From the IMG/VR virus record IMGVR_UViG_3300033984_000379, positions 45,406 to 109,405 of that record: a DNA stretch of 64,000 nt. One strand, given 5' to 3'. Positions 9,859 to 61,536 of the stretch are shown here, in pieces. The stretch's first letter is position 1. Each line of letters opens with the position of its first letter. The notes under the pieces are model-generated. The model had not been told where the DNA came from. It worked only from the letters and a program-made list of their open reading frames with translations, and did not search any database. Made by a program: the position numbers and the translations under genes. This DNA is from a virus.

Positions 9859-12800
9859 ATGTCAAATTCATATAGAATAAGAACCAAACCTGGTGTTGAT
9901 GAATCAATAAATATTTTAATTGACCAAGAGTTTGAATATTTAGAGATTTTATCTTTAAAATTACTGCAAAGTCAAATATATACAAGACAATGTTCTGATT
10001 ATGGGGTTGTTGTAGGTCGTGTTAGTGTTAATAATGGTTTTGGTTTACCAAATGCTAAAGTATCTGTTTTTATTCCTTTAGACACGACTGATGAAGCTGA
10101 CCCTGTAATCTCTGAACTATATCCATACAAAACATTAACAGAATTAAATGATGATGGGTATAGATATAATTTACTACCTTACAAACCTTCACATAGTGGA
10201 CATGTACCTACGGGTACATTTTTTGATAGACTTGATGTCTTAATAGACCCAACTTTAATTGAGGTTTATGATAAATACTACAAATATACCACCGTAACTA
10301 ATTCAAGTGGAGATTATATGATATTTGGTATCCCAACGGGAAGTCAAACTATTGTTATGGATGTTGATTTATCAGATATTGGGGAATTTTCATTATCACC
10401 TCAAGATTTAATACGAATGGGCGCTGCGACATCTAATCAAGTTGCTGGAACAAAATTTAAAGCGTCTACTAATTTACGAGAATTACCACAATTAATTACA
10501 ATTAACAAAACAATTGATGTTAGTCCGTTATGGGGTGAACCAGGATTATGTAATTTAGGTATAACAAGAACTGATTTTGATTTATCTGGAGAAGCTAATA
10601 TTGATATTAGACCTACAGCTATATTTATGGGGTCAATCATTTCAACAAATGATAATGATTCTATAAAGGCTGGTTGTACTGTTAGAAGTAATGGGGGTTA
10701 TTTATGTGATATGATTACTGGTCCAGGTGAAATTTTAGCAATTAGACAAACCATATATCAAGATTCTTATGGTAGACCAATTTTGGAAACTGTTGATTTA
10801 GATGAGGGTGGTCAAGTTATTGATGAGAATGGAACTTGGATGGTTGATGTCCCAATGAATTTGGATTATGTTGTAACTAACGAATTTGGTGAACAAGTTA
10901 TTTCTGACGACCCTAAAAGAGGTATTCCGACTAGAGGTAAATACCGATTTAAAGTTAAATGGAATCAATCTCCTTCATTGTCTGAAAGTGTAAAAAGAGG
11001 TTATTTTTTAGTTCCTAATATTAGAGAATATGGATGGTCGGGTACTAGTAAAGACGACCCGTTTTTTATTAAAGATATTTCAACAGAGTATAGTAGTTAT
11101 CAGTTAGCTATGAAATCATATTCATTTAGTTTAGATTGGTCGGATTATGGTTATACAGGTTCTTCTTTGAATAGTAACGCTGTTATTGGTAGGCAAATGA
11201 TTCAAGATGCTATAGATTGTAAAGATACTTTCTATGATATGAAATATAATAAAGTCTATACTGTGTCCCAATTACTTGATAAGTATAGAAAAGGCTATAG
11301 TAATGATAGATTTATTGGTGTTAAAAATATTTTAGACAATAGTTGTCAGAGTGAAAATTATAAATTCCCAACAAATGATTCTAATCTGAGGTTAGATATT
11401 ATATTTATATTATTTTCATTATTAATGATGGTTTTCAGACCTATTTTGTATGTTCTTGTATTAGTAATGCACATATTATTCTTTATTTTAGAGTTACTTA
11501 AATCTTATTTAGTTTATGGCCTTGTTGGATGGGCTGCTTTTGCTGCTTACAATGCGTTTACCGCGGCTAGTGTTTCCGCGCCAGCTTTTGGTTTAACAGC
11601 AACAAATATTGCTGCGGGAGTTGCTTATCTTACTTTAGGTGTTATGTTAGTTTTTGTTAGAGATGAGTTAAAAAAAATAGATTTAAATGGTATTAATTTA
11701 CCTTTATTAACTTATCCTGATTGTGATATGTGTGATTGTGATGCAACAGGTGCAACACCAGGTAATGCCCCTGGAAATAGTAAAGTTTTAGCTAATAAAA
11801 ACAGAAGAATTCCATGTAGTACAATTACTTCAGATTTAACACCTATGAATGTTTTAATGTCAAATATTCAAATTTCACAACTAGGTACACCAATATATGA
11901 CTATCCATTTTTTGATGACGAATCGTATAAAACAGTTGCTTTTATGCAAATTTTTGCGGGTAAACAATATGTTGATAGAGCAGATGTTAGTATTGGAACC
12001 TCAAGTTTAGTTACAGCAAAATATTCAATCACTGATAGTAGTGGTAATGATAAAAACTATACTGATTATTTTTTCACTTCAAGTTTAACTTTAGCCGAAA
12101 GAATTAATTTGTTTAACACTAAAGCGAAATATTTCGACAATAGTCCAAATAACCCTGGTGGTGGTGTTAATAGAATTAGAACAACTTTCGGAATTAATTC
12201 TAATCCGGGAAAATCTCACCTTGATAATACTATTGTTATTATTGGTGATATTAATAGTTTAAGTAATTATATACCAGGTCAATTAATTAGTTTCCAAAAT
12301 CCAAATTTATCTAAAGATTTAAACACTACAAATGCTATAGCTAATCAATATGGTAATAATGCAATTACTGGAACTTCAGCTACAACTACGACGATTACGG
12401 TTAATTTCGCAAAAACAGATGGTTCAGGTAATAGTGGTGTTACATATAATAATATTGTTCAAACTGGTGATAGCGTGTATCATAAATTCCCTATTGATAT
12501 GGAATATTTCCAAGTAATTACTGGTATGACTTATGATAGTTTTTCGGCTAATTGTTCTAATGATATTGTCAATTCTTTAAACAACAGGTTTCTGAATAAT
12601 AATATGAGGGTTATTGAAATTACTGGTCAACATAGTGGTGAGGATAATTGTCAAGAAGTTCATATGGTGTCACCAATAACTAAAGTTGATGATTATAAAA
12701 ATTTATCAGTAATTATTTTAAATAGAGGTGTTGACCCATATTCTTCTAAAATTGATGTTCAGTATGATTTAAGTGTTCTATTTGGTAAAAATTTTGGAGA

Positions 12801-22786: not shown

Positions 22787-24991
22787 ATGAGTTGTTTTTT
22801 ATCATATACACAAAGTGTAACCGGGGATTGTTCCAATACTAATGTTGGTGCTTTTACTATTAATATTAATGGTGAAGCACCGGACTATATTATACAATGG
22901 TTAAGTCCACCTTTAGGTACAATTGCTTTGGGTGCTGGTGTTACAGCTTATACTCAAACTAATTTATCGGGGGGAACTTATAGTTTTAATGTTATTGACT
23001 CTTGTTTACCTACTAATACAACACAACCAATTAATATTTATATTTCTACAGGTACTTGTGTTAGTTTAAACAATGTGGTTAATACATTATGTGGTAGTAA
23101 TAATGGTACTTTAACAGCTGAAAATAGTAACTTTTACGACACCTCAGAATTTTATTTATACGAAACAACTAATGGTTATATAACATCTGGTTCGTCCTTT
23201 GGTAATTCATTCACTTTTAATGATTTGTCACCTGGGTTTTATTATGTCGTTGGTAATGATGGTGGAGGATGTACGGGTAAATCAGAAACTTGTATTATAA
23301 AAAGTTCAACAACAATTGATTATGGTTTTTATATTGTAAATGACGCTGGGTGTGCTGTAAATTCAGGTAAAGTTTTTATAACCGGTTTAACAGGTAACCC
23401 CCCATATACTTATTTATGGAGTAATGGTGCGGTTACAGATTCTATTAGTGGTTTAACTGCTGGGTATTATAGTGTTTCTGTTACTGATAGTACTTATTGT
23501 ACAATATCAAAAAGTGCTATGGTTATTGATGTACCATCAGTTGGTTTAGGAGCTTTTGTTGTTACAAGTCCTTCATGTTTCACTAGTGATGGTGAGGTTG
23601 AGGTTATAATAACAGGAGGAACAGCACCATATTATTATTTAGGGTCTAATGGACAATCATATATATCTTTCAGTACTTCTCAAACATTTACAGGTTTAGG
23701 TGGGGGATTATTCACGGTAACTGTAACGGACGCTGGATTATGTAGTTTTACAAGTTCAATTTCTGTTTTAGTTCCAAATGGATTTAGTATTGCGACTATT
23801 GGTATAATAAATTCTAGTTGTAATAATTATGATGGGTCTATTTCACCGATTAGTTTATTTGGTGGTAGTGGGAATTATGTTTATAGTTTAACTTATCCTG
23901 ATGGACATACAATTTCTCAATCTACTACTAATAGTAATTGGTCGTTTAATGGATTATCAGGTGGAACATACACATTAAGTATTAATGACGGGACTTGTTC
24001 TTTTGTGAGTGCTTACACTATTGATAACCAAGTTAAATATACCTTAAGTACCTCAACAACTGGGGTAACTTGTGGTTTAGATAATGGTTCGGTAACTTTA
24101 ACTATTGGTTCTGGAGGAACACCACCATATTTATATGAGATTGATGGACAATCAATAAGTACGTCATTTACCTCACATACCTTTAATAATTTAAGTTATG
24201 GGTCTAATATGGCTTCGGTTACAGATTCATCAACACTTATTTGTAAACAAAATACTCCTTTTTTTATTGATGGTAGTTCAGGCGTTGATTTTACTTTAAA
24301 TAGTACAAATGCAACCAATGGTTCTAATGGGACTATTTCAACATTAATTACAAGTGGTGAACCACCATTCACTTTAGAATGGAGTAATAATGTAAATGGT
24401 CAAACAGGTTTAACCATAACTAATTTATCCGCGTCAACATATACCCTTAAAGTTACTGATAGTAATAGTTGTGTTAAAACTCAAAGTGTTGTAATTAATG
24501 GTTCTGTGATTTTAGGTTCTTACCAAACATATGAAATATGTGAGGATATTTTTAGTGATACAACTACATTAGGTAAAAAAGGTCCTAAAGAAATGTTAAA
24601 CGAAGGATTTTATGATTTAACTTCAGATTTTACGGATTGTATTCTTAATAACGCCATTTTTACTGTTATGGTTGACATAAGTGGAGTTACGGCATCAACC
24701 GAGTTTTATACAGGGTATACTTTAAATGATTATCCTACTGATAGTGTATATGAAACCGAATTATCTAATTTAATTGAGAGTTATCCACAAATTGGGGATG
24801 TTATTCTTATTCATTCTGAAAATACTATTGTGATAAAAACAAGTTGTGAAACTGAATATTTGGTTGATACGAGTATTAAAACATATCTTAAGATTAATTA
24901 TGATATTTCTTGTGTTGTTGCGGATTGTGTACCACCTGTGCCTTGTACAACAGATTTTGTTATGAGTGGTTATAGTTATAATATTTCTTAA
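22787..24991 (+). CDS. SprB-repeat tail adhesin (734 aa)
   Basis: This 734-residue protein is built largely of repeats of about 70-90 residues that fit the SprB repeat known from the Flavobacterium gliding adhesin. Each has a pattern like NGxVxxxxxGGxPPYxYxWSNG ... TxxxxGLxxGxYxVxVTDxxxC. Clear copies include GNPPYTYLWSNG with LTAGYYSVSVTDS, GGTAPYYYLGSNG with GGGLFTVTVTD, GGTPPYLYEIDGQ, and SGEPPFTLEWSNN with LSASTYTLKVTDSN; together at least five lie between about residues 190 and 570. The C-terminal 170 residues form another domain. A role in binding the host surface is likely. Confidence 0.82.
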   Translation: MSCFLSYTQSVTGDCSNTNVGAFTININGEAPDYIIQWLSPPLGTIALGAGVTAYTQTNLSGGTYSFNVIDSCLPTNTTQPINIYISTGTCVSLNNVVNTLCGSNNGTLTAENSNFYDTSEFYLYETTNGYITSGSSFGNSFTFNDLSPGFYYVVGNDGGGCTGKSETCIIKSSTTIDYGFYIVNDAGCAVNSGKVFITGLTGNPPYTYLWSNGAVTDSISGLTAGYYSVSVTDSTYCTISKSAMVIDVPSVGLGAFVVTSPSCFTSDGEVEVIITGGTAPYYYLGSNGQSYISFSTSQTFTGLGGGLFTVTVTDAGLCSFTSSISVLVPNGFSIATIGIINSSCNNYDGSISPISLFGGSGNYVYSLTYPDGHTISQSTTNSNWSFNGLSGGTYTLSINDGTCSFVSAYTIDNQVKYTLSTSTTGVTCGLDNGSVTLTIGSGGTPPYLYEIDGQSISTSFTSHTFNNLSYGSNMASVTDSSTLICKQNTPFFIDGSSGVDFTLNSTNATNGSNGTISTLITSGEPPFTLEWSNNVNGQTGLTITNLSASTYTLKVTDSNSCVKTQSVVINGSVILGSYQTYEICEDIFSDTTTLGKKGPKEMLNEGFYDLTSDFTDCILNNAIFTVMVDISGVTASTEFYTGYTLNDYPTDSVYETELSNLIESYPQIGDVILIHSENTIVIKTSCETEYLVDTSIKTYLKINYDISCVVADCVPPVPCTTDFVMSGYSYNIS

Positions 24992-26396: not shown

Positions 26397-28652
26397 ATGG
26401 CGTTTTCAGCTTCAACATGTGTAACAAATTTAGGTGGTATTGATATTAATTCTACCGTTAAAATACGAACCTATCCTGGTGAGATTCAAATAGGCGGTGA
26501 TATTATATTATCGGCTATGACGGGAGTTAATTGTCCTTATACAATTACTGGTATTCCAAACGGAACTACAGAATTACAAATATATGTACCCGGGACTAAT
26601 GTTTGTGGGTATATAGATATTTCTGATAATGATTTATGTAATACTTGTGATTTAGGGTTTGATTCTTTTACATCATCAACCATTGGAAATATAGTTGTTG
26701 GTAATTTAACAGGTAGTTGTCAAAACCCCATAACGGATTATCGTATTCTTTGGTTTGGTCCTAGTGAGTCTATGGAGGTTGTCTCAACAAATGTTGCTCG
26801 TATATCGGGTAAAGGCTCTGCTTTCACTTATAATTATCAACATCCTTTAACCGGAATTAGTTCTTTACCTATGGAACAAGGGTATTACAGACCTGTAATA
26901 GACAAAGTTAGAATCAATGGGGTTAATTTTTCATATACCGGAGGGACAGGTTATGTTCCGGCAGATTTGGAATGTTTTGATAGTTTACCTGTTTATGTTT
27001 CAGGTTATACTTGTGAAAATGGTAAGGAGACGATAGGTGATTACACACATAGAGTTAATTTTACATCAACAGGAAGTGGTTTAAGTCCAACACCTCTTAC
27101 ATCAACTTTCATATTATCTGGTGGTACTACCAATTTTTTCGCTTGGAAATTTAAAGGAGAGATTATTCCTGACCAATTAAAATTAACATTTTTTGGAACT
27201 GAGTATGGTTTAGAACCAATAATTTTGGAATGGTGGGAAGTTGGAAGTATTCCCAGTTTAAATACTGCGATAATTCAAAATACCAATACTTTTCCAAAAT
27301 CTGCAAACACTATTAGTTATATTTCTAAAGTGACTACTTTAACTGGTCTAACGATAAATGATGGTGATAGGATATTGTTAGAAGTTATTCCTTCTAAAAC
27401 AAATTTTAATACTAATTGGGATTTTTATTTTACTTGTTTAGAAACATTTAATTGTGATACATGTTTAGATAGTTATGAGAATGAAAGTTATAAAATTGTT
27501 GGTAGTTCTATTACTGGAATTACAGGTACCTGTGGTAATATTGATATTAGTGTAACTATTAGTGGTTGTAATGAATCAACCCTTTTAAATTCTGATTTAA
27601 TTAAATATTTTTATCAAAACCCCCCGGAATCTAATGTTATAAATAACCATTATTATGTTAGACCTTTTACTTTCCCTTTAAACAACTTTTCTGATTTAAG
27701 ATTTAATGGGTACAGATGTTCACCTAGGGGTTTTGGGGGTATTATAAATTGTTCAAATTCAGGTAATTATATTTCTTTTGAAAAAACTGTTACCACAATA
27801 CCACCAATTCAAGGGAATATTTATATGGAATTTAGTGGAAGTTCTAGTTTAACAGATTTTAACTCTTTTTATAATGGTTATTTATATTGGAAAAATAGTC
27901 CAAGTTATTCTGGTTCTACTGATAATACAAATTATGATTATTATCGTTATTGGATATTACCGATATCTACAGCAACAGGTGATACTTATTGTGGTGATAG
28001 TACTACTTATTATGATTATTATATTCATTATCCGACAGCTGTTGTAACAACAGGATTAACAGGTAGTGGTTATTGGTTAAATATAACTATGCCAACAATT
28101 AGTGATGGTATTTTACCAAATAGTTGTGAGTTACAATGTGATTATTGGAGAATTGAAAGAGTAGGTATAATAAATACTTCCTCAACAGGTTCAACTAATA
28201 ATCGTAAAATTTATAGTAATCGGGGTGCTAAATATCAATCACCATTTCAAATATGGGATACTGGTCGGAGTAATAATCCTAGTACTAGTGGTGAGATTAT
28301 TAGTTATTTACGGGTGAATAATAATATGTTAAATACAATACCTTCATCGGGTAGTAGTAATACTTTAATACATAGTTTGTCTGGTCAAACATGTGATTAT
28401 AGTTCTTACGGGGTTTTTAATACCAATGGTAGAACACCACCGACAGATGACGGTTTATATTATTATGAAAAAAATTTATATGCGGTTAAATTACAATTAA
28501 CAAACCCTTCGGATGTTAGAGATTTTGATATTTATATGTCACCAATTAATAACTTTGTCTACTCTGGTTATCCCGGAAACCCAAACTATGAATTAGCCTA
28601 TAGTTATTCAGGGGGAAGTGTTGTTTATTCAAGTTCAACTTACATAATTTAA
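26397..28652 (+). CDS. Predicted tail fibre/adhesin protein (751 aa)
   Basis: This 751-residue protein is rich in Thr, Ser, Asn, Tyr and Gly with a long beta pattern and no recognised enzyme domain. Regularly spaced cysteines occur throughout, for example CNTCDLGF, CDTCLDSYEN and ELQCDYWRIERV. The sequence type resembles its neighbours, which suggests one adhesin family that has diverged. It starts 18 bases after the previous stop with an A-rich leader. Confidence 0.7.
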   Translation: MAFSASTCVTNLGGIDINSTVKIRTYPGEIQIGGDIILSAMTGVNCPYTITGIPNGTTELQIYVPGTNVCGYIDISDNDLCNTCDLGFDSFTSSTIGNIVVGNLTGSCQNPITDYRILWFGPSESMEVVSTNVARISGKGSAFTYNYQHPLTGISSLPMEQGYYRPVIDKVRINGVNFSYTGGTGYVPADLECFDSLPVYVSGYTCENGKETIGDYTHRVNFTSTGSGLSPTPLTSTFILSGGTTNFFAWKFKGEIIPDQLKLTFFGTEYGLEPIILEWWEVGSIPSLNTAIIQNTNTFPKSANTISYISKVTTLTGLTINDGDRILLEVIPSKTNFNTNWDFYFTCLETFNCDTCLDSYENESYKIVGSSITGITGTCGNIDISVTISGCNESTLLNSDLIKYFYQNPPESNVINNHYYVRPFTFPLNNFSDLRFNGYRCSPRGFGGIINCSNSGNYISFEKTVTTIPPIQGNIYMEFSGSSSLTDFNSFYNGYLYWKNSPSYSGSTDNTNYDYYRYWILPISTATGDTYCGDSTTYYDYYIHYPTAVVTTGLTGSGYWLNITMPTISDGILPNSCELQCDYWRIERVGIINTSSTGSTNNRKIYSNRGAKYQSPFQIWDTGRSNNPSTSGEIISYLRVNNNMLNTIPSSGSSNTLIHSLSGQTCDYSSYGVFNTNGRTPPTDDGLYYYEKNLYAVKLQLTNPSDVRDFDIYMSPINNFVYSGYPGNPNYELAYSYSGGSVVYSSSTYII

Positions 28653-40089: not shown

Positions 40090-42420
40090 ATGAAATACGA
40101 TTTAGAAATAGAAAAATTAGATAATCCTTATATTCAAGTAGTCTGGGAAGATTTCGCTGAGAATTTTACACAAGAAAAGATTAAAAGTGTAAAACACTAT
40201 TTTCAGAAAAAATATCTTACTAGTAATGTGAATATTATTACAAAGACTAAAGTTACCCAGGAGACGACACATTCTGTTGATATTTCGTTTAATATCTTGG
40301 ATAGTAATTATCAATTGGAATTGGTTAAATCGTATTTAAAATCAAAGAATAATGAAAATTATTACGATGAGGTTTGTGCGTTAAATGCCCAAGTGGATAA
40401 CAATATGTTATTGACCCAAACCGAAGCAACACCATTCAAGAAATGGTATATCAAAAACATTGAATTTTCAAACTTCTTATCTTATGGTGAGAATCAAAGA
40501 TTGGATTTTGAGAAATGTGATGGTATATCTGTTGTGGAATCAAATCCCCCAAACTTTGGTGGTAAAACAGTTCTATCGGTTGATTTATTATTATTCTTAT
40601 TCTTTAATGAAACAACAAAAACTTCAAAGGCTGAAGAAATTTTTAATAGATTTTCTGATAAGAATAAGGTATCTGTAAAGGGTGAAATAATCATTGATGG
40701 TGATGAATATGTTATTGTTAGAAACATTGAAAGAAAGAAGACTAAAGCCGGTGAATGGTCAGTTAAAACAGAATTAGATTTCTTTAAGAAACTATATGAT
40801 GGTAGCTTACAAAATTTTACTGGTGAACAAAGAAGGGAGACTGAAAGTTTTATTAAAACATCTATTGGAACCAAGGACGATTTCTTGATGACTATACTAA
40901 CTACCGCTAGTAATTTAGAGGAGTTAATTGACGCTAAACCAACGGCCAGAGGTCAAGTATTATCCAGGTTCATGGGGTTGGACTTCCTTAAGAAAAAGGA
41001 AGAGGTTGGTAAAGAGTTATATAGTCAATTCTCAAAATCAATGTTATCAAACATTTATAATACTGAATCACTAAAAACTGATAACGAAAATTGTCAAGAC
41101 AATATCACAACATTACTTGACCAGAACAATGAATTAAATCCAAAACTAGTTGATGTTATGGAGAGAATTCTTAAAGGTCATGATTATAGAGATTCTTTAT
41201 TAAAGAATAAACATACTGATATTGATGCTGAAATTAGTAGGTTATCACCGGATACGGTTAATTCTGAAATTGATACATTAAAATTTGATAAGGGAAAAGT
41301 TGTTACACAATTAGAAAACCTGAAAGTGGTGGAACCAACATCGTTTTATCATGAAGATGAACACGATAAGGTTAAAGAAGAATATGATATTGCTTACAAG
41401 GAAAAAGTTGTTGTTGATAACAAAATAAAAACCTTGGAAGAATTGAAAAGTTCTGTTGGTGATGGGATTAAATGTGAACATTGTGGTATTGAGCTAATGA
41501 ACGCAACAATTACTCAATCAAAAATTGGGGAACTTGACGGATTTATCATACGCAAAGACGAAATTTTGGGGTTAATGACTGATTTATCCACCAAAGAACA
41601 AAGTTTTACCAAACTAAAAAAAGAATTTGATGAATATGAGAAAAACAAACTCATCAAAGAAAAGTACGAATTAAATATTGAATCTTATGATTTGAAAATC
41701 AAGAACTTAAGTGACAAGTTATCCAGGTATTACGAACTTCAGGAGAAGATATCCGAAAACCAAAAAACTGAAACCTTATTGATTAAAGCCGGTCTTAAAA
41801 TTGATGAACTTGAAAAAGAGAAATATTCTATCAAAAAAACAATTGATGATAACATTAATAAAGTCGGTATAAATAACGATAAGATTAAAGAGAATAATAT
41901 TAAGATAAATAAAATCGCTGAAGAATCTGAAAAGGAAAAAATTTATAAAATCTATTTAGAAATTTATGGTAAAAATGGTATAACTAAATCAATTATGAAG
42001 ACTATGATGCCACTTATAAATTCTGAACTTCAAAGGTTATTACAGGATAGTTGTCACTTTAGACTTGAGGTTAAAATCAATGATAAGAACGAGGTTGATT
42101 TCGTTATGGTAGATAACAATTCCCAAGTTGAAAAGAGTATGTCATCCGGGTCTGGGTATGAAAGAACCATTGCTTCATTAGCTCTTAGAGCCGTGTTAAG
42201 TAAAATATGTTCATTGCCAAAACCAAATATTATGGTAATGGATGAGGTGTTTGGTAAGATTTCCAACGATAACCTGGAAATGGTTGGGGAATTCTTTATC
42301 AAAATTAAAGAATACTTTGAAAGGATATTCCTTATTACTCATAACCCTTTGGTTAACAATTGGGCTGATAATGTTGTTAAGATTAAAAAGGAAGATAACA
42401 TTAGTTATGTTAGTCAGTAA
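40090..42420 (+). CDS. Recombination ATPase, gp46/SbcC/Rad50-like
   Basis: This is a 776-residue SMC-like ATPase. About 110 N-terminal residues precede the ABC half (IKNIEFSNFLSYGENQRLDF at about 121-140), an extension absent from T4 gp46. The P-loop is SNPPNFGGKT (151-160), in which the first and fourth glycines of the usual GPNGAGKS are Pro and Phe. A zinc hook CEHC lies near 462 between two coiled-coil arms. The signature motif is MSSGSGYERTIASLALR and Walker B is IMVMDEVFG. With the gp47-like protein it would resect DNA for recombination-dependent replication. A terminator follows. Confidence 0.9.
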   Translation: MKYDLEIEKLDNPYIQVVWEDFAENFTQEKIKSVKHYFQKKYLTSNVNIITKTKVTQETTHSVDISFNILDSNYQLELVKSYLKSKNNENYYDEVCALNAQVDNNMLLTQTEATPFKKWYIKNIEFSNFLSYGENQRLDFEKCDGISVVESNPPNFGGKTVLSVDLLLFLFFNETTKTSKAEEIFNRFSDKNKVSVKGEIIIDGDEYVIVRNIERKKTKAGEWSVKTELDFFKKLYDGSLQNFTGEQRRETESFIKTSIGTKDDFLMTILTTASNLEELIDAKPTARGQVLSRFMGLDFLKKKEEVGKELYSQFSKSMLSNIYNTESLKTDNENCQDNITTLLDQNNELNPKLVDVMERILKGHDYRDSLLKNKHTDIDAEISRLSPDTVNSEIDTLKFDKGKVVTQLENLKVVEPTSFYHEDEHDKVKEEYDIAYKEKVVVDNKIKTLEELKSSVGDGIKCEHCGIELMNATITQSKIGELDGFIIRKDEILGLMTDLSTKEQSFTKLKKEFDEYEKNKLIKEKYELNIESYDLKIKNLSDKLSRYYELQEKISENQKTETLLIKAGLKIDELEKEKYSIKKTIDDNINKVGINNDKIKENNIKINKIAEESEKEKIYKIYLEIYGKNGITKSIMKTMMPLINSELQRLLQDSCHFRLEVKINDKNEVDFVMVDNNSQVEKSMSSGSGYERTIASLALRAVLSKICSLPKPNIMVMDEVFGKISNDNLEMVGEFFIKIKEYFERIFLITHNPLVNNWADNVVKIKKEDNISYVSQ

Positions 42421-42433
42421 AATAATTTTTATT

Positions 42434-42468
42434 AATAACCATCAAATTACTTGATGGTTATTTTTTTT
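42434..42468 (+). terminator. Intrinsic terminator after gp46-like gene
   Basis: A 12-bp perfect stem (AATAACCATCAA / TTGATGGTTATT) with a 5-base loop and a long T-run. Its right arm also contains the TTG of the next promoter. Confidence 0.9.
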
Positions 42469-42481
42469 ATGTTTACATTTG
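42451..42481 (+). promoter_or_regulatory. Bacteroidota-type promoter for the split helicase cassette
   Basis: TTG (42451-42453), 20 bases, TACATTTG (42474-42481), 28 bases before the ATG at 42510. The upstream element overlaps the terminator stem. Confidence 0.8.
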
Positions 42482-42509
42482 TACTCTAATCAAATACTAA
42501 AACAATAAA

Positions 42510-43493
42510 ATGGAAAATAGTTTATATCCTAAAGTTAGTTACGACCGAATGTTTATTTATGCTTGGTATGAGAAAACCAATGAATATGAAACTAAATTTG
42601 GTGAACACTGGGTGAAAGCAGATGTTGACCCTAAAACTGATATTGACAAATATGTTAGAAGTTCTATGAATAGACGAAAAGACCTTTTTGATGATGGGAC
42701 TATTGTTGTTGAATCAATATGGGATGTAACAGAATATTCTAAAAAATATGATAAATATTACCCTAAATCACATGTTGATGATAAGATTCGTAAAGAAATC
42801 GGGTATGTTAAACAAAGTGAGGTTCATAATCTTCACTTTGCAATTTTAGTTGAGAAAGTAAATGAGATTCTTAACAAAGAAAATCAACAAAAACCTGAAG
42901 TAGGTTTATCTACAGCACAATACGATGATGCGGTTTTAGTTTTGAACGCTATTGACAATGGTAAACGTGTAATTTTTTCTGAATTAGCGGCAAGATATGG
43001 TAAAACGATTTGGTCTTCAGCGATAGCTGTTGAGACGGGTATTCCAATTGTTATTGTAGCTTCTTATGTGTTAACATCATTTACCTCGTTCAAAAATGAT
43101 ATTATGGATTTTCAACAATTTCAAAACATTAAGACTGTTGATACTTCGGATGGCGATTATAAAGAACAAATTAAAAAATACGTAGATGAAGGAAAACAAG
43201 TTATGGTATTTCTATCACTATGTAATGGTATAGGTCGTAATGACCGTATTAACTTCTTAAATAACCTTAATGTTCAAAGATTAGTTTTTGTTGATGAAGC
43301 GGATTATGGTGCTCACCAAAAGAAACAATTTGAAGCTTTAAAGGCATTAGTGAGTAATGATGATATTTTGATATTAATGACCGGAACTAACTCAGATAGA
43401 GCTTCATCAGATTGGGATATTGATTTTATGTTGTCTACAACATATTTTGAACTTTTAGTCAATAAAAAAGAGTCCATGGCTTTGGTTAATTAA
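42510..43493 (+). CDS. SF2 helicase N-terminal half of a restriction-like enzyme (327 aa)
   Basis: Residues about 1-110 form a domain (FIYAWY ... KFGEHWV ... YVRSSMNRRKDLFDDG ... IWDVTEYSKKYDKYY ... VDDKIRKEIG) that distantly suggests a GIY-YIG/T5orf172-type nuclease; this is uncertain. Residues 130-327 are the first RecA lobe of an SF2 helicase: a Q-like GLSTAQYDDA, Walker A ARYGKT (161-166), DEAD-like VDEADYG near 260 and motif III LMTGTN near 290. The second lobe is missing but is encoded by the next gene in the same reading frame after two in-frame stops. Helicases of this type occur in type ISP and IIG restriction systems. Confidence 0.78.
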   Translation: MENSLYPKVSYDRMFIYAWYEKTNEYETKFGEHWVKADVDPKTDIDKYVRSSMNRRKDLFDDGTIVVESIWDVTEYSKKYDKYYPKSHVDDKIRKEIGYVKQSEVHNLHFAILVEKVNEILNKENQQKPEVGLSTAQYDDAVLVLNAIDNGKRVIFSELAARYGKTIWSSAIAVETGIPIVIVASYVLTSFTSFKNDIMDFQQFQNIKTVDTSDGDYKEQIKKYVDEGKQVMVFLSLCNGIGRNDRINFLNNLNVQRLVFVDEADYGAHQKKQFEALKALVSNDDILILMTGTNSDRASSDWDIDFMLSTTYFELLVNKKESMALVN

Positions 43494-43512
43494 TATATTA
43501 TAACTATTTTTG
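43481..43512 (+). promoter_or_regulatory. Bacteroidota-type promoter between the helicase halves
   Basis: TTTG (43481-43484, inside the end of the upstream gene), 20 bases, TATTTTTG (43505-43512), 23 bases before the ATG at 43536. An exact consensus match that would give the second half its own transcript. Confidence 0.8.
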
Positions 43513-43535
43513 ATAAAAAATAAAAAATCAATATT

Positions 43536-44780
43536 ATGTTAAAGTTTTTCAAAAAAGATATTAAAAGAGATTTAATATACGCTTCAGTTCAGGGGTATCA
43601 ATTAGATTTGAGACCGGTTGTTGAAAAAGCAAAACAACTTCATTCTAACCATGATGAATTACCATCTTGGCGTAAACTTGTGGAAAACCCTAAAAAAGGT
43701 AAAGGTTGGTTTGTTACATTACTGGAGGGCATGTTCAAAGGAAAACATAATCTTAATGGAATTAATGTTGAGAATCTTGTGGATTCAACTAATGGAGAAT
43801 TATCAAATCGTCGTGTTACTATGATGTTTTTTCCGGATAATACTAAAGTTGCTAATCTTATAACTATTGGTAAAATAGCCCAAGAAACTTTGGGAGGTTG
43901 GAAAATTAAAGTCCTTAACGGGATGACGGTTAAAGATAATTCTGAATGTGAACAAAAAGTTAAAGAATGTATAGAATCTACTGATGATAATGTTTTGATT
44001 ATCTCATCTAAAATGGCTCAACGGTCTTTTTCCCAAAGTTTAATAACGGAAGTTTATTTAGCTTATGATAATGGTCAAGATGGTGCAACAATTCAAAAGA
44101 TGTCCAGAGGTTTGACTTCAAATACTTCTGATAAAATAGCTCGTATTTTTTCATTATCATTTGACCCTAATCGTGATGATAAAATAGATACTTTAGTATT
44201 TCAAGCAGCTTTAAATCAGGTTGAAAAGAAAGGTAAAACAGATATTCGAAAAGAATTACGAAGAGTGTATGAGTCAATTGACATTTATTCTTGTAATGAT
44301 GATGGTGCGTTTAAGTTAAATGTTGATGATTATGTCAAACAAGCACTTGAGAAAAAAGGTATTTTTCGTGTTATGGGTAAAAAGTCTGACCTTACTATGC
44401 TTAGTAAAGAACAACTAAATGCTTTGGCTCAAGGTAATGTGAGTTTTCTTCGTAATGAAATGAAAGAAAAAACTGAAATTGGTAAAACAAAAGACCCTTT
44501 ACCTAAAAACATTGGTAAAACAGAAACGGAAAAACCTAATGATAAAGAAATTAACAAAGTTCGTGAGGTTATTATTAGTATTATTGAACATTCTGATATT
44601 ATTATGTTAGCAGCTAAAAATCAGGGAGGTAAAAATATTATTGAAGCTTTAGCCATCATTGAAAAAAATAATTGGACTTCAATAATAGAAAAAGAATTTG
44701 AAGTGAGATATGATGTTATTAAGTATGTATTTACGATGGGGGTTATAAAGAATGAGTGGGTTGATATTCTTCACGGATAA
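43536..44780 (+). CDS. SF2 helicase C-terminal half of a restriction-like enzyme (414 aa)
   Basis: This is a 414-residue protein. The first 230 residues look like the second RecA lobe of an SF2 helicase: TMMFFPDNTKVANLITIGKIA, then NVLIISSKMAQRSFS and motif VI-like GATIQKMSRGLTS at about 185-197. The C-terminal 170 residues are helical and charged, a likely coupling domain. It continues the upstream gene in the same frame but has its own promoter and ATG, so it is a separate protein rather than a read-through. Reassembly of the two halves into one motor is likely. Confidence 0.75.
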   Translation: MLKFFKKDIKRDLIYASVQGYQLDLRPVVEKAKQLHSNHDELPSWRKLVENPKKGKGWFVTLLEGMFKGKHNLNGINVENLVDSTNGELSNRRVTMMFFPDNTKVANLITIGKIAQETLGGWKIKVLNGMTVKDNSECEQKVKECIESTDDNVLIISSKMAQRSFSQSLITEVYLAYDNGQDGATIQKMSRGLTSNTSDKIARIFSLSFDPNRDDKIDTLVFQAALNQVEKKGKTDIRKELRRVYESIDIYSCNDDGAFKLNVDDYVKQALEKKGIFRVMGKKSDLTMLSKEQLNALAQGNVSFLRNEMKEKTEIGKTKDPLPKNIGKTETEKPNDKEINKVREVIISIIEHSDIIMLAAKNQGGKNIIEALAIIEKNNWTSIIEKEFEVRYDVIKYVFTMGVIKNEWVDILHG

Positions 44781-44781
44781 T

Positions 44782-44812
44782 TTTGGATATTAAATATTAT
44801 TACCTATTTTTG
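44782..44812 (+). promoter_or_regulatory. Bacteroidota-type promoter before methyltransferase gene
   Basis: TTTG (44782-44785), 19 bases, TATTTTTG (44805-44812), 17 bases before the ATG at 44830. The leader would be only about 10-13 bases. Confidence 0.82.
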
Positions 44813-44829
44813 TAAAAAAAAAAGAAATT

Positions 44830-46005
44830 ATGTTTTCACGAATAAAATTTGATATTAGTGCTATGGTTACTGATATTTATAGTAAAATACCTCAAGAGAT
44901 GTTTGAGTCTGATGTAACTACTTTTGTAGATATACAAGCGGCTGGATTACAATTTATCATTCCTTTAATAGAGATACTTCGTAAGAAAGGACATTCTGAC
45001 GATAACATTCGTAATAGAGTGTATGCTTATGCCGAGAATGATTTATATTTAAATTACGTTATGTTTAAATATAAGGGCTTACCAATAACGTATAAAATAT
45101 ATGATGAAAAAATTAATATGAAATTTGATGTTGTAATTGGTAATCCACCTTATAATAAACAAGTTGGACCTAAAAAAACTCAACCTGTGTGGCCTAAATT
45201 TGTTGAAAAATCTTTTGATATGTGTAAGGAAGACGGTTACGTTAGTTTAATACATCCAAATGGATGGAGAAATTTTGATGGAAAGTTTAAGGATATTCAA
45301 AAATTATTATTATCTAAATGTGTTAAATATATTAATATGAATTCACCTAGTGATGGTGTAGAAGTATTTAAAGCTCAAATTGCTTTTGATTATTATCTTA
45401 TACAAAATAAAAGTCATGAAAATGAATTGGTTGATATTGTTGATTATGATGATAAATTACACAATATTGACATTAGAAATTTTGATTTTATACCAAATAG
45501 TAATATAGATTTAGTTTATTCTTTAGTTGCTAAAGAAGGTGAGGAGACTGTTAAAATTTTACATAGTTATTCTGATTATGAAACCAGAAAAAATTATATG
45601 TCAAAAGTTAGGACTGAAGAACATATTTACCCTTGTGTGTATACTGTAAAAACTAATGACACATTAACATATTTTTATAGCAATAAAAACGATAACGGAC
45701 ATTTTGGCGTTCCCAAAGTAATATGGGGTAACGGTGCTAGTTATGGTGTGATTATTGACGAAAATGGTGAATATGGTTTGACACAGTTCTCATACGCTAT
45801 TGTTGATGAACCTAATAATTTACCGTTAATAAAAAAAGTATTGCAAAGTAAGTGTTTTATTCAGAATATTATGGGGTATTATGGTGGTACAACGTTAATA
45901 ATATTTAACAGAAAAATTATCTCAACATTTCGTAAAGATTTTTGGAAAGAATTTCTTGATGAAAATAACAATGTTATAGAACCAAAACTTACAGATGTTA
46001 AATAA
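44830..46005 (+). CDS. N6-adenine DNA methyltransferase with NPPY motif (391 aa)
   Basis: This is a 391-residue protein of the Eco57I/type ISP-like gamma methyltransferase group. The catalytic motif IV is NPPY (105-108) in FDVVIGNPPYNKQ. A motif I-like segment, TFVDIQAAGLQF at about 31-42, is degenerate: the usual D-x-x-x-G-G-G-Q-F glycines are mostly lost. The spacing to GHSDDNIRNRVYAYAEN is still conserved. The C-terminal 200 residues fit a target-recognition domain, ending with the WGNGASYGVIIDENGEYG and YYGGTTLIIFNRKI segments. SAM binding may therefore be weak, or supplied by the next gene's product. It overlaps that gene by 11 bases. Confidence 0.82.
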   Translation: MFSRIKFDISAMVTDIYSKIPQEMFESDVTTFVDIQAAGLQFIIPLIEILRKKGHSDDNIRNRVYAYAENDLYLNYVMFKYKGLPITYKIYDEKINMKFDVVIGNPPYNKQVGPKKTQPVWPKFVEKSFDMCKEDGYVSLIHPNGWRNFDGKFKDIQKLLLSKCVKYINMNSPSDGVEVFKAQIAFDYYLIQNKSHENELVDIVDYDDKLHNIDIRNFDFIPNSNIDLVYSLVAKEGEETVKILHSYSDYETRKNYMSKVRTEEHIYPCVYTVKTNDTLTYFYSNKNDNGHFGVPKVIWGNGASYGVIIDENGEYGLTQFSYAIVDEPNNLPLIKKVLQSKCFIQNIMGYYGGTTLIIFNRKIISTFRKDFWKEFLDENNNVIEPKLTDVK

Positions 46006-46417
46006 ATATAAAAAACATATAAGAGACAGAGTTTATATGTCGGGTATTGATAGAGATAAACTTAGAATTAAACAAACTGCTGAGGTATTTACACCTCAGC
46101 ATCTTGTTATAACAACATTAGATAAATTGGAATTAGAAAATCCGGAATTATTTACTGACCCAACAAAAACTTTTATAGATAATAGTTGTGGTGATGGTGA
46201 GTTCCTGGGGGAGATTGTAATACGAAAGATGGAACGTAGTGGTTGTACATTAGAACAAGCTTTATCAACCACTTATGGTGTTGATATAATGGAAGATAAT
46301 ATTGAGGAATGTAAAAAGAGATTGGCTGGTCCTACACCTACTGAAGAAATATACAGAATCCTTAATAAAAATATTGTTTGTCACGATGGTTTAACTTATA
46401 ATTACGATTTTAATTAA
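45995..46417 (+). CDS. SAM-binding half of an N6-adenine methyltransferase (140 aa)
   Basis: This is a 140-residue protein with the N-terminal motifs of the same methyltransferase type: motif X region KQTAEVFTPQHLV, a perfect motif I FIDNSCGDGEFL at about 60-71, motif II YGVDIMEDNIEEC and motif III NKNIVCHDGLTYNY. It stops just where motif IV (NPPY) should follow. It could be a truncated remnant, but the clean overlap with the upstream gene and the intact motifs suggest a functional partner. In ordinary enzymes this part comes first, so the order here is circularly permuted across two genes. Confidence 0.78.
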   Translation: MLNKYKKHIRDRVYMSGIDRDKLRIKQTAEVFTPQHLVITTLDKLELENPELFTDPTKTFIDNSCGDGEFLGEIVIRKMERSGCTLEQALSTTYGVDIMEDNIEECKKRLAGPTPTEEIYRILNKNIVCHDGLTYNYDFN

Positions 46418-46422
46418 AAAAA

Positions 46423-46453
46423 TTTGGTAATTCAAAAAAAGGTGTTATCTTTG
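46423..46453 (+). promoter_or_regulatory. Bacteroidota-type promoter before acidic protein and sigma factor
   Basis: TTTG (46423-46426), 19 bases, TATCTTTG (46446-46453), 18 bases before ATG 46472. It shows that an upstream in-frame ATG at 46424 lies within the promoter and is not the start. Confidence 0.85.
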
Positions 46454-46471
46454 ATAAAAATAAATGACACT

Positions 46472-47032
46472 ATGAAAACTCAAACAAAATACATCTTATT
46501 TGTTTTTACTAAACAAGATAATTTAAATGAATTAGTAACATTGATTGCTGAAGAACTTACACCAATTTCTTATTCCCCTAAGATTAATTATTATTATGAT
46601 AATCAATCTATGATATTCACATTTGATTCCCAGGAAGAATTTGGTGATATTAAAGAGTATGTTGACATTCTGTTTGACGACTTAGATATGACATATGTGT
46701 TATTACCTTACAACACTGACAATATGTCATACAATACACCTATTGATGTGTCAAATCATTTATTTGACCTAAATTTACCTGAAGATGTGTCAGGTAATAT
46801 TGATGCGGGGCGAAAATTGTTACATGATGAATTAACTGACAACGTTATGTCATTTTTCAAAAAGATTGAATTTAATGAAGAAATTGACGAAGATGATGAT
46901 GAAGATATTTTATTAAAACAAATAAAACCATTACCTTTGACCTTGGACAACATTTTAGATAAAATAAATGATTGCGGGATTTCTTCTCTAACAAATGATG
47001 AATTAAATTTATTAAACAAATACTCTAAATAA
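46472..47032 (+). CDS. Acidic protein upstream of the sigma factor (186 aa)
   Basis: This 186-residue protein is strongly acidic at about 120-160 (IEFNEEIDEDDDEDILLKQI). The N-terminal 110 residues have an alternating strand-helix pattern (YILFVFTKQDNLNELVTLIAEEL; SMIFTFDSQEEFGDIKEYVDILF), somewhat like a ferredoxin fold. The stop is three bases before the sigma gene, so it may be co-translated and could act as an anti-sigma or sigma-assistance factor; this is inference from position. I recognise no family. Confidence 0.7.
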   Translation: MKTQTKYILFVFTKQDNLNELVTLIAEELTPISYSPKINYYYDNQSMIFTFDSQEEFGDIKEYVDILFDDLDMTYVLLPYNTDNMSYNTPIDVSNHLFDLNLPEDVSGNIDAGRKLLHDELTDNVMSFFKKIEFNEEIDEDDDEDILLKQIKPLPLTLDNILDKINDCGISSLTNDELNLLNKYSK

Positions 47033-47035
47033 TAT

Positions 47036-47836
47036 ATGAAAACTAAAAGCTATTCAATTCCGATTAATCAAGAAGAAATTAATGTTTATCTTAAAGATAT
47101 TCGTAAGATAAAAGTTATGACTCCTGAACGAGAGAGAGAACTATCAGCACTTATAAGTTCTGGGACATTAACTGAAAAAGAAATTCAACAAGTTAATAAG
47201 GAACTTTTGGAAGGTAACTTACGATTTGTAATTACGGTCGCTAAACAATATCAAAACCAAGGATTACCATTTCCTGACTTAATCGCTGAAGGTAATTTAG
47301 GTCTTATGAAAGCCATTCATAATTTTGACTGGTCAAAAAACCTAAGATTTATTTCTTATGCTGTATGGTGGGTTAAACAATCTATTTTACAATCATTGAA
47401 TGATAATGCTAGAACTATACGACTACCGGTTAATGTTGTTCAGGATTTACATCGTGCTAAGAAAGAGATTGAAAATAATGGTGGAAAACTTGAAGATAAG
47501 TTTCAAAATTTACCATCAATGATATGTTTAGATATGAGTATTAATGAAGATGGTGACACTTTAGTTGACATAATTAAAAACGACCAAGCGGATATGCCGG
47601 ATGAAATATTTAATAGTAAGGATTTATTAAAACAAAAACTTATGTCTTTATTACATATGTTAAATGAAAGAGAAAAAATCATTATTGAGGATTATTTTGG
47701 ATTGTCGGGTGCACCAAGAACACTTGAGGATATTGGTAATGATTTTGGATTAACTAAAGAAAGGGTTAGACAAATCAAAGAGAAGTCAATTAGATTTTTA
47801 AGAAACAATTCTAAAGAATTATTTGATTATGTATAA
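47036..47836 (+). CDS. Bacteroidota primary-type RNA polymerase sigma factor (266 aa)
   Basis: This is a 266-residue sigma-70 protein close in size to Bacteroidota RpoD (about 287). Region 1.2 is NVYLKDIRKIKVMTPERER, region 2 runs from about 57 to 130 with LRFVITVAKQYQNQGLP, PDLIAEGNLGLMKAI and FISYAVWWVKQSILQSL, and the helix-turn-helix of region 4 is TLEDIGNDFGLTKERVRQIKEKSIRFL near 225-251. Region 3 is shortened and divergent. It could redirect host RNA polymerase to phage promoters or keep host-type promoters active. Its own upstream promoter is host-type. A terminator follows. Confidence 0.92.
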   Translation: MKTKSYSIPINQEEINVYLKDIRKIKVMTPERERELSALISSGTLTEKEIQQVNKELLEGNLRFVITVAKQYQNQGLPFPDLIAEGNLGLMKAIHNFDWSKNLRFISYAVWWVKQSILQSLNDNARTIRLPVNVVQDLHRAKKEIENNGGKLEDKFQNLPSMICLDMSINEDGDTLVDIIKNDQADMPDEIFNSKDLLKQKLMSLLHMLNEREKIIIEDYFGLSGAPRTLEDIGNDFGLTKERVRQIKEKSIRFLRNNSKELFDYV

Positions 47837-59808: not shown

Positions 59809-61536
59809 ATGGAAGAACTTTATAAATATATAATTGAAACTTATCATGTTACAGAATATGATGATACAACTCCCGTCCAAAGGGAGATATCTGACGACCC
59901 ATTTGAGGATAATGGTCGGTATTATGATATGGAAGGACTTGAGTATGTAATCAAAGGAAACTATACAACAAAAGAAAAATTTGAAGAAAACCTTAAAAAC
60001 AAATTAGCTGTAGTTGAAATAAAAAGAAAAAGTGTTTACGTAACTAAAACTGAAGATAAAATTAGTTTTAAACTTTTCACATATAGTAGAAGACGACGAC
60101 TAAATGGTCGGGGTTTTAAAAGTGATAATAGTGTTAGGTTTGTAACTTTTAATGTTAAGACTAATTCACTATATTCTGGACATATGACGAATTACACATC
60201 CAAAAAAAAGGTTAATAAAAGAATTCGTAGAAACAACTTTTGGGAAAGTCCTTTAAACTTGATAAAACATTTAATGAACACAATGTTTTATGGGAGTTTA
60301 AGTAATAAAAAACTTAAGGAAAAAATGACCGAAAAACACGAGGTTATCGGAATATCAATGAATATTTTTTTAAGTAATATCCCAGGTGTTGTTATTAACC
60401 CATCTTATAGTGATGATGAAAACTTATACAAAAGATATTTGGAATATTCAGGTATTAAGTATTCAAATAACTGGAAAGTGTTTATGGAGATTTTCCCCCA
60501 AGTTACAAAAAAAGATTTGGTAAAACACAAGTTAAAGTTTATTGATGCGTTTATGACTAAAAATGGTGTCAGTGGTGAAAAACTAAAAAGGGTTTTACAT
60601 ACGGTTAAAGAATGTAATATGGAGTCATTACATTATGCTTATCGTTTATTGGGGGAGAAATTTGTGAATTCCCAAAGTGATGACTTTATGAAACAGGTTA
60701 TTGAGACCTCGGTGTTTAAATACTACTATATGCCGGAGTTTGCATTTAAGAATGATAAAGAGAAAAGAAATGTTGTTGAGGTTATGAAGTTAGTTATGAT
60801 GAAACATATAACATCTAACACTTTCAACGACCATATAAATATGATAACCCAAATAAGATTATTTGAGGATTTTACTTGGAAGTCGAAAACTTATGATGAG
60901 TTTAATAATGAACATTATGATTTGACCAATAAGGTTAGTCATTATACTCAAGGGGATTTCACTAGAAAATATGATGAAAAATTTGTAAATACTATTGAGA
61001 AACCTATTGTGTTAGATTACATTTATTATCCAGTTGTATTAAAAACATCTATTGACTATAATTCGGAGTCGGTGACGCAATCAAATTGTGTTAAGACTTA
61101 TATTAAAAGAGAGGAGTCAATAATCATTTCACTTAGGAGAGATGAAATCACTGGTGAAAGAGTTACCATTGAATATATTGTAGGTCATAATGGTGAAAAA
61201 GTCTTTGACATTGTAAGAATCCAGACATTAGGTAGATTTAATCAAGGTATTGATGAAGTTTGGCATAATGTTGTGGCTAAATTAGATGATAGAATTAATG
61301 ATTATTTATTACATAATGAGTTTACTTTACCGGTTATGAATGTTGTTGTAGGTGGTAGAGAATTTGATACTGAATGTGAGGTTACTGATAATATTAAAAT
61401 GAAACATTATATGGACCAAAGTAATAGAACCGATTTTGGTTATCAACTAAAATGGGATAAAGATTTAAGTAGGTTAAAAGATAATGTAAATACTGATGAC
61501 CAAGAAGAAACTCACGACTGGATTGATTTTTTTTAA
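59809..61536 (+). CDS. PcfJ-like protein (575 aa)
   Basis: This is a 575-residue protein. The C-terminal region (about 410-500) fits PcfJ-like proteins known from conjugative plasmids and phages: QSNCVKTYIKREESIIISLRR, then RVTIEYIVGHNGEKVFDIVR and QTLGRFNQG. PcfJ has no established molecular function. The N-terminal 200 residues are basic, with a beta segment (KRKSVYVTKTEDKISFKLFTYSR). It has a strong host-type promoter and starts the operon with thioredoxin and glutaredoxin. Confidence 0.65.
   Translation: MEELYKYIIETYHVTEYDDTTPVQREISDDPFEDNGRYYDMEGLEYVIKGNYTTKEKFEENLKNKLAVVEIKRKSVYVTKTEDKISFKLFTYSRRRRLNGRGFKSDNSVRFVTFNVKTNSLYSGHMTNYTSKKKVNKRIRRNNFWESPLNLIKHLMNTMFYGSLSNKKLKEKMTEKHEVIGISMNIFLSNIPGVVINPSYSDDENLYKRYLEYSGIKYSNNWKVFMEIFPQVTKKDLVKHKLKFIDAFMTKNGVSGEKLKRVLHTVKECNMESLHYAYRLLGEKFVNSQSDDFMKQVIETSVFKYYYMPEFAFKNDKEKRNVVEVMKLVMMKHITSNTFNDHINMITQIRLFEDFTWKSKTYDEFNNEHYDLTNKVSHYTQGDFTRKYDEKFVNTIEKPIVLDYIYYPVVLKTSIDYNSESVTQSNCVKTYIKREESIIISLRRDEITGERVTIEYIVGHNGEKVFDIVRIQTLGRFNQGIDEVWHNVVAKLDDRINDYLLHNEFTLPVMNVVVGGREFDTECEVTDNIKMKHYMDQSNRTDFGYQLKWDKDLSRLKDNVNTDDQEETHDWIDFF

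Follow-up and report, generated by a model that had tools for sequence, protein, structure and literature searches.

We analyzed a 64,000-nucleotide window of viral DNA (positions 45,406 to 109,405 of the 109,405-base IMG/VR virus record IMGVR_UViG_3300033984_000379), in which four open reading frames (ORFs) at 42510–46417 encode proteins of 327, 414, 391, and 140 amino acids (aa). In gene order, these proteins carry lobe 1 and lobe 2 of a superfamily 2 (SF2) helicase, an N6-adenine methyltransferase with a target-recognition region, and a free S-adenosylmethionine (SAM)-binding methyltransferase half. We propose, with moderate confidence, that the four genes specify a single dissociated, ATP-dependent restriction-modification-like complex whose SAM site would be supplied in trans. 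The features of the locus are as follows (window coordinates).

42474–42481, + strand: promoter-like element TAnnTTTG, 5′ of the lobe-1 gene
42510–43493, + strand: ORF 1, 327 aa, N-terminal GIY-YIG-like domain (residues ~12–106) followed by SF2 helicase lobe 1
42510–42839, + strand: N-terminal domain of ORF 1, with family-conserved FIY, KFG, R/K, WD, DDxxR, and E-x-H
42999–43007, 43290–43304, and 43374–43388, + strand: ORF 1 motifs Walker A GKT, VDEAD, and LMTGT, respectively
43494–43535, + strand: inter-lobe gap, with a second in-frame TAA (43521–43523) and a TAnnTTTG element (43505–43512)
43536–44780, + strand: ORF 2, 414 aa, SF2 helicase lobe 2 (QKMSR at 44094–44108) with a C-terminal helical extension
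44805–44812, + strand: promoter-like element TAnnTTTG, 5′ of the methyltransferase gene
44830–46005, + strand: ORF 3, 391 aa, gamma-class N6-adenine methyltransferase fold and target-recognition region
44929–44955 and 45142–45153, + strand: ORF 3 motifs, I broken and NPPY intact (residues 105–108), respectively; motif X is absent
45995–46417, + strand: ORF 4, 140 aa, separate SAM-binding half without motif IV, its start overlapping the end of ORF 3 by 11 nucleotides (nt)
46082–46096 and 46178–46204, + strand: ORF 4 motifs X (EVFTP) and I (DNSCGDGEF), respectively; motifs II and III are also present

In profile searches, ORF 1 matches phrog_22930 (2e-11), ORF 3 matches Pfam Eco57I (3.5e-14), and ORF 4 matches phrog_11371 (4e-17) over positions 277–382 of 383. 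An original prediction made from the DNA letters alone described a helicase interrupted between its lobes, and the sequence bears this out: TAA codons at 43491–43493 and 43521–43523 occur in frame with lobe 1, as does the lobe-2 ATG at 43536 (1026 nt from the ORF 1 start, divisible by 3). Lobe 1 contains GKT, VDEAD, and LMTGT and lobe 2 contains QKMSR, likewise as claimed. The promoter placed between the lobes corresponds to the TAnnTTTG element at 43505, which is of the Bacteroidota −7 type, with TTTG 20 nt 5′ of it. Such elements precede ORFs 1, 2, and 3, and their enrichment before the ORFs of the window is modest, with 7 of 54 at 5–60 nt compared to 2 of 54 at 61–116 nt and 3 of 54 inside ORFs. 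We rejected an alternative genetic code, as the 54 ATG-initiated ORFs of at least 100 aa end in TAA (48), TAG (4), or TGA (2), and the two TAA codons between the lobes also speak against it.

ORFs 1 and 2 together model as one SF2 motor. We aligned their read-through product with 75 rows from relatives (17 fused, 28 lobe-1, and 30 lobe-2 ORFs) and obtained a model with a mean predicted local distance difference test score (pLDDT) of 84.6 and a predicted template modeling score (pTM) of 0.84. This model matched RadD (7r7j) with a Z score of 20.2 and 3.7 Å over 332 residues and the type ISP enzyme LlaBIII (4xqk) with a Z score of 18.3 and 5.2 Å over 399 residues; the comparison was filled by helicases (residues 127–630), so the N-terminal domain lies outside its reach. 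The view that the two lobes belong together is supported by a complete motor fold, with docking of the lobes in the model being expected rather than independent proof, because the alignment includes natural single chains. Helicase motifs are kept on both sides of the split: among mixed split and fused rows, the Walker A lysine is present in 49 of 51, the first aspartate of the DEAD box in 46 of 46, and the motif VI arginine in 48 of 48.

The split recurs widely among relatives. A search of viral contigs with an alignment of the ORF 4-type half gene yielded 296 relatives, from which 80 loci were kept (L numbers below denote individual loci), and a lobe-2 alignment search yielded 62 loci. From these we assembled a set of 50 distinct helicases, with identical sequences removed and matches to both lobe models required; near-copies remain (for example, L113 and L129). 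The lobes occupy two ORFs in 32 of the 50 and one chain in 18, a split share that this set overstates because it leaves out a further 12 distinct single chains, each 600 aa or longer, in which lobe 1 alone was recognized; with them, 32 of 62 are split. The second lobe lies in a different frame in 28 of the 32 split helicases. The two lobe ORFs overlap in some loci and lie up to 3,851 bases apart in others; three methylase genes part the lobes in L135 (L135:1064–7281). By eye, TATAAT-like elements stand in several inter-lobe gaps (for example, L124, L097, L101, L105, and L132). On a quick maximum-likelihood tree, which carried long-branch warnings, had 22 of 47 inner branches starred, and does not distinguish fission from fusion, a minimum of 10 changes between split and fused is needed (7 when trust is limited to starred branches), compared to a mean of 15 for shuffled labels.

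The four-gene order is more than a chance arrangement, as it is also found elsewhere. Among the 50 helicase loci, 18 have the order lobe 1, lobe 2, methylase, half, 14 have a fused helicase followed by methylase and half, and 18 have another order or are cut by a contig end; the annotation of the cultured Synechococcus phage S-CAM7 shows four genes ordered as in the window. The stops are therefore not unique to this assembly, although fused homologs exist, and we rejected an assembly artefact as their cause on the strength of the S-CAM7 annotation and the recurrent splits. Nor are the parts of the cassette special to Bacteroidota phages, and cellular operons exist too. Searches with the single proteins of lobe 2 and of the NPPY methylase each recovered one locus, an identical copy in a 282-kb record. 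A scan of 84,980 cellular species with one lobe-2 pattern matched 15 stretches, none of them from a relative, and distant homologs could escape such a pattern.

We next turn to the methyltransferase genes. As predicted, ORF 3 has NPPY, a degenerate motif I (DIQAAGLQF), and no FTP motif X before NPPY, and thus has neither motif X nor a functional motif I in its own chain; ORF 4 contains EVFTP and DNSCGDGEF and ends before any motif IV. The permuted order that had been noted, with the NPPY gene before the SAM-binding half, is that of other phages as well. An NPPY-like motif occurs in 112 of 119 distinct family ORFs. We modeled ORFs 3 and 4 joined by one frame step (pLDDT 81.9, pTM 0.68), using alignment A9, which had been checked; alignments A8, in which attached halves were placed on the separate half, and A10, of which only the conserved columns were seen, were not used. 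Residues 3–375 of the model matched M.TaqI (2np6; Z score 21.4, 5.5 Å over 323 residues), and residues 1–384 matched CamA (7lni; Z score 21.8, 7.2 Å over 363 residues). ORF 3 therefore has a whole gamma-class fold, its decayed first half included, a feature that the original prediction could not have seen. By secondary structure, ORF 4 forms a second first half in the joined model; the fold comparison was filled by methylases (1–384), which places the separate half outside its reach.

To compare the SAM motifs of separate halves with those of the halves attached to NPPY proteins, we counted them by regular expressions in related viral and cellular sequences, dropping eight contig-cut fragments. 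Because the sequences are related, the resulting contrast describes a pattern rather than a number of independent events. Motifs X and I are both intact in 154 of 155 separate halves (viral, 98 of 99; cellular, 56 of 56) and in 6 of 99 attached halves. The 52 viral attached halves comprise 6 with both motifs, 32 without X, and 14 without either, with 4 of the 52 lacking a match to the NPPY pattern. In the 47 cellular attached halves, X is kept and motif I broken in 44, and motif I is kept without X in three (L163, L204, and L213). Counted over whole ORFs, the first glycine of motif I is replaced by lysine in 45 of 48 cellular attached halves, and all 45 of these loci also hold a separate half. 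Separate half and NPPY gene are closely linked: of the 85 distinct separate halves for which 1.3 kb or more of upstream sequence is available, 77 adjoin an NPPY gene, 76 of them directly downstream of it (adjoining in 110 of 120 when identical ones are included). Two natural arrangements give the strongest support for the half acting together with the NPPY part: the P-SSM2 type, in which the NPPY protein starts at motif IV and a separate half comes next, and Aeromonas phage Ah1, in which the NPPY part and then the half form one permuted chain.

The N-terminal domain of ORF 1 is probably a divergent GIY-YIG nuclease of T5orf172/MUG113-like type, a prediction that draws on conserved residues and on relatives. 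In a family scan that covered 47 of 60 distinct N-terminal domains at expectation values (E) up to 0.5, MUG113 was matched by 7 of the 47 and T5orf172 by 6 (best 1.1e-5); both are GIY-YIG families. The window domain itself stayed below the Pfam gathering score for T5orf172 and MUG113, with no match at all, and family and profile searches with it gave no match to Mrr. Cellular helicases with the same neighbors exceeded the Pfam GIY-YIG cutoffs in the three of three tested, and the phage MUG113-type class aligned with the cellular class at an hhalign probability of 98.8. The conserved residues are, in order, Y17, K29, G31, R/K50, W71-D72, D90-D91-R94, and E104-H106, with K29 and G31 each present in 46 of 46 rows and D90, D91, and R94 in all 37 rows with a letter there. 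DSSP analysis of the model gave the order strand-strand-helix-strand-helix, with the tyrosine in strand 1, KxG in strand 2, R/K in helix 1, and the acidic residues in the helix after strand 3. Residue order and secondary structure are consistent with a GIY-YIG arrangement; the profile matches are weak. Sequence searches of the PDB with three N-domain profiles returned no nuclease, and 1,2-dihydroxy-3-keto-5-methylthiopentene dioxygenases, found at 3e-4 with one profile, were taken as chance matches. In some phages, a separate gene that by eye resembles a PD-(D/E)xK nuclease lies beside the half and methylase genes (L007:4050–4652; L009:5977–6540).

Related genes also form operons in cells. The half-gene alignment recovered 59 bacterial and archaeal loci from one-genome-per-species contigs, of which 38 have the order half, methylase, helicase, nine have half and methylase with no recognized helicase on the locus, and 12 have less than that. 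The 38 include Bifidobacterium, Clostridia, Bacteroidales, Saccharibacteria, Olsenella, Treponema, and one Pacearchaeota. The cellular helicases, all reached through the half gene, are encoded in one ORF, with no motor split. One example operon (L158:7986–12679), which has counterparts in several phyla and no curated name in the libraries that we scanned, consists of a half, a methylase with a broken motif I, and a GIY-YIG helicase. NCBIfam at its cutoff gave no name to any of seven cellular-operon proteins scanned.

In the complex that we propose, ORFs 1 and 2 would together form one SF2 DNA motor, each contributing one of its two RecA lobes as a separate polypeptide, with lobe 1 carrying an N-terminal nuclease that is probably of GIY-YIG type. 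ORF 3 would be the modification and specificity subunit, picking the site through its target-recognition region and catalyzing methyl transfer through NPPY; its own SAM half appears to have decayed, and ORF 4, a homolog kept as a free subunit, would supply the SAM site in trans. Phage DNA would be methylated at the sites set by ORF 3, and the motor would travel along DNA from unmodified sites, so that the N-terminal domain could cut unmarked DNA of the host or a rival. We infer the assembly of the four proteins, the trans supply of SAM, the nuclease activity, and the role against host or rival DNA from the patterns described above.

Several observations weigh against this reading. The window N-terminal domain matched no nuclease family in family and profile searches, and its class aligned with the phage GIY-YIG class at an hhalign probability of 11 and with the cellular class at 2, compared to 75 for a small intermediate class. 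The joined model of ORFs 3 and 4 is silent on which half occupies the active site. One separate half, in L008, lacks an intact motif I; in L163, a separate half lies next to a methylase with an intact motif I; and five of the six intact attached halves adjoin a separate half (L014, L015, L016, L023, and L033; L056 does not). Because these six are intact and another 32 keep motif I without X, the separate half must be more than a stand-in for a broken one. Finally, in 4 of the 50 helicase loci (L095, L096, L115, and L116), the record fragment contains a methylase but lacks a separate half, and in L115 both attached motifs are broken; a search of these four records found the attached half only, on fragments of 7.6–58 kb that leave a distant copy possible.

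The main rival to the restriction-modification-like complex is a purely protective methylase with a motor, which would only methylate phage DNA against host restriction, the helicase scanning or remodeling DNA and the N-terminal domain being no nuclease. The absence of a family match and the weak profile links of the window-class N-terminal domain suit this alternative, as do multiple NPPY genes whose recognition regions diverge within a locus (two or more genes in 7 of 50 loci), which would fit broad self-methylation, and the common occurrence of NPPY and half pairs with no recognized helicase on the fetched stretch. However, the residues of the N-terminal domain are strongly conserved (K29 and G31 without exception in 46 rows; D90, D91, and R94 in 37), other members have a recognizable GIY-YIG domain, and some loci carry the separate PD-(D/E)xK-like gene seen by eye. 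We regard this alternative as credible, albeit rather unlikely.

We considered two further alternatives. If the cassette were a leftover of permutation by duplication, ORF 4 would be a second copy with no role in trans, and ORF 3 would keep its own poor SAM half. All stages of such a route exist (attached and separate halves together, an attached half that is broken or missing, and a permuted chain in which the parts are fused), an iterated half profile into which attached halves had been taken matches NPPY proteins at their start (L014, 1e-33), and the four loci whose fragments contain a methylase but lack a half would also suit it. Yet it is the separate half that is conserved (154 of 155) and the attached half that has decayed, and cellular operons retain both, in 38 of 59 loci together with a helicase, making this explanation improbable. 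Decay of a former single-chain enzyme inactivated by the stops, or a sequencing error, could account for the two in-frame TAA codons in the window and for the existence of fused relatives. This explanation is largely refuted by the 32 of 50 relatives that are also split, 28 of those 32 out of frame, by the three methylase genes between the lobes in L135, by the helicase motifs kept on both sides, and by the same four genes in cultured S-CAM7, and we give it very little credence.

Some loci encode more than one methylase. Two or more NPPY ORFs were found in 7 of 50 phage loci (L008, L106, L113, L124, L129, L135, and L146). In L124 (L124:3311–9184), five tandem NPPY genes follow the helicase, the last of them truncated where the contig ends; the four complete copies are 79–84% identical in the first third of their alignment and 11–35% identical in the middle third. 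After each complete copy come a remnant of the first part of a half gene and then a stretch common to the next copy; two of the remnants read MLNKVIHHARNREYMSG (the window counterpart being MLNKYKKHIRDRVYMSG), and the other two are diverged and end early. The methylases of L113, L107, L135, and L147 likewise combine conserved starts with divergent remainders. The NPPY gene is present as a single copy in the 109-kb record of the window, as is the half gene in the 282-kb relative, so we see no such array here. It is possible, and we suggest it tentatively, that such loci encode a combinatorial machine in which one motor-nuclease and one universal SAM half serve several interchangeable methylase-recognition subunits, with swapping of cassettes and a modular motor split. 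On this suggestion, the divergent recognition region would be flanked upstream by the conserved attached half and downstream by the start of the separate half, and these conserved flanks would allow phages to gain or exchange specificities through homologous recombination. Repeated splitting of the motor would be part of the same modularity, as the dosage or partners of the lobes could vary.

If the proposed complex is correct, an SF2 motor would work as two separately made lobes and would have switched repeatedly between split and fused forms, and a methyltransferase would obtain its SAM site from another polypeptide, both in phages and in cellular operons. The family would also contain living intermediates of a duplication route to permuted methyltransferases and would extend the inventory of restriction-modification systems by a widespread operon type, suggesting that large phages carry and diversify such systems. 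The same pieces, split or joined, occur in many other phages, and in bacteria and archaea without the motor split.

The surroundings of the cassette (window positions 40090–47836) are T4-like. A gene for an SbcC/gp46-like ATPase lies 5′ of the four ORFs, and a gene with a DUF6576 C-terminus and then a gene for a sigma-70 family factor lie 3′ of them. Genes for a DnaB-like helicase, a primase, and ribonucleotide reductase occur elsewhere in the window. Large ORFs with no PHROGs match at E up to 0.001 lie at 9859–15015, 22787–24991, 26397–28652, and 59809–61536 (1718, 734, 751, and 575 aa, respectively).

In a literature search by title and start of abstract, which lay outside REBASE and subscription journals, we found no description of a free SAM half, a lobe-split helicase, or methylase arrays of this kind. 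The original prediction called the cassette a dissociated form of single-chain type ISP/IIG enzymes; its dissociated, restriction-modification-like character is supported by the parts, the motor model, and the permuted order, whereas it does not fit type ISP. Type ISP enzymes, as outlined in PMC3874165, are single chains with an N-terminal Mrr-like nuclease, a translocase, a gamma-class methyltransferase, and a target-recognition domain. The window shares with them the order of SF2 translocase, gamma-class adenine methyltransferase, and target-recognition region, with the translocase present as two chains and the recognition region C-terminal to the methyltransferase fold, and LlaBIII matches not only the motor model but also the methylase model (Z score 17.1). 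It differs in having four chains, an extra SAM-binding half, and no recognized Mrr-type nuclease, the N-terminal domain being GIY-YIG-like at best. The PADLOC model REase_MTase_IIG (PDLC03626; 1359 positions) likewise describes one chain. Cellular helicases cover its positions 151–805 (L158) and 180–799 (L178), cellular methylases cover 1009–1359 (L158) and 860–1358 (L178), and the single-chain phage protein of L008 matches 1001–1123; by comparison, the window lobes gave no match at E up to 0.01. The cellular half-methylase-helicase operons contain the same three components, with the separate half intact and motif I of the attached half broken. They differ from the window in gene order, the half gene coming first, and in their helicase, which is a single ORF and, in the three tested, has a GIY-YIG domain that exceeds the cutoff. 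PMC6158711 discusses permutation in the evolution of restriction systems, and circularly permuted M.EcoKI-like adenine methylases of jumbo phages are reported in PMC7824862. The latter have motif IV onward followed by X-I-II-III, as in Ah1 and in the gene order of the window, and the portion of PMC7824862 at hand mentions no separate half, helicase partner, or array. Compared to such permuted single-chain methylases, the window carries the motif IV part and the X–III part as separate genes.

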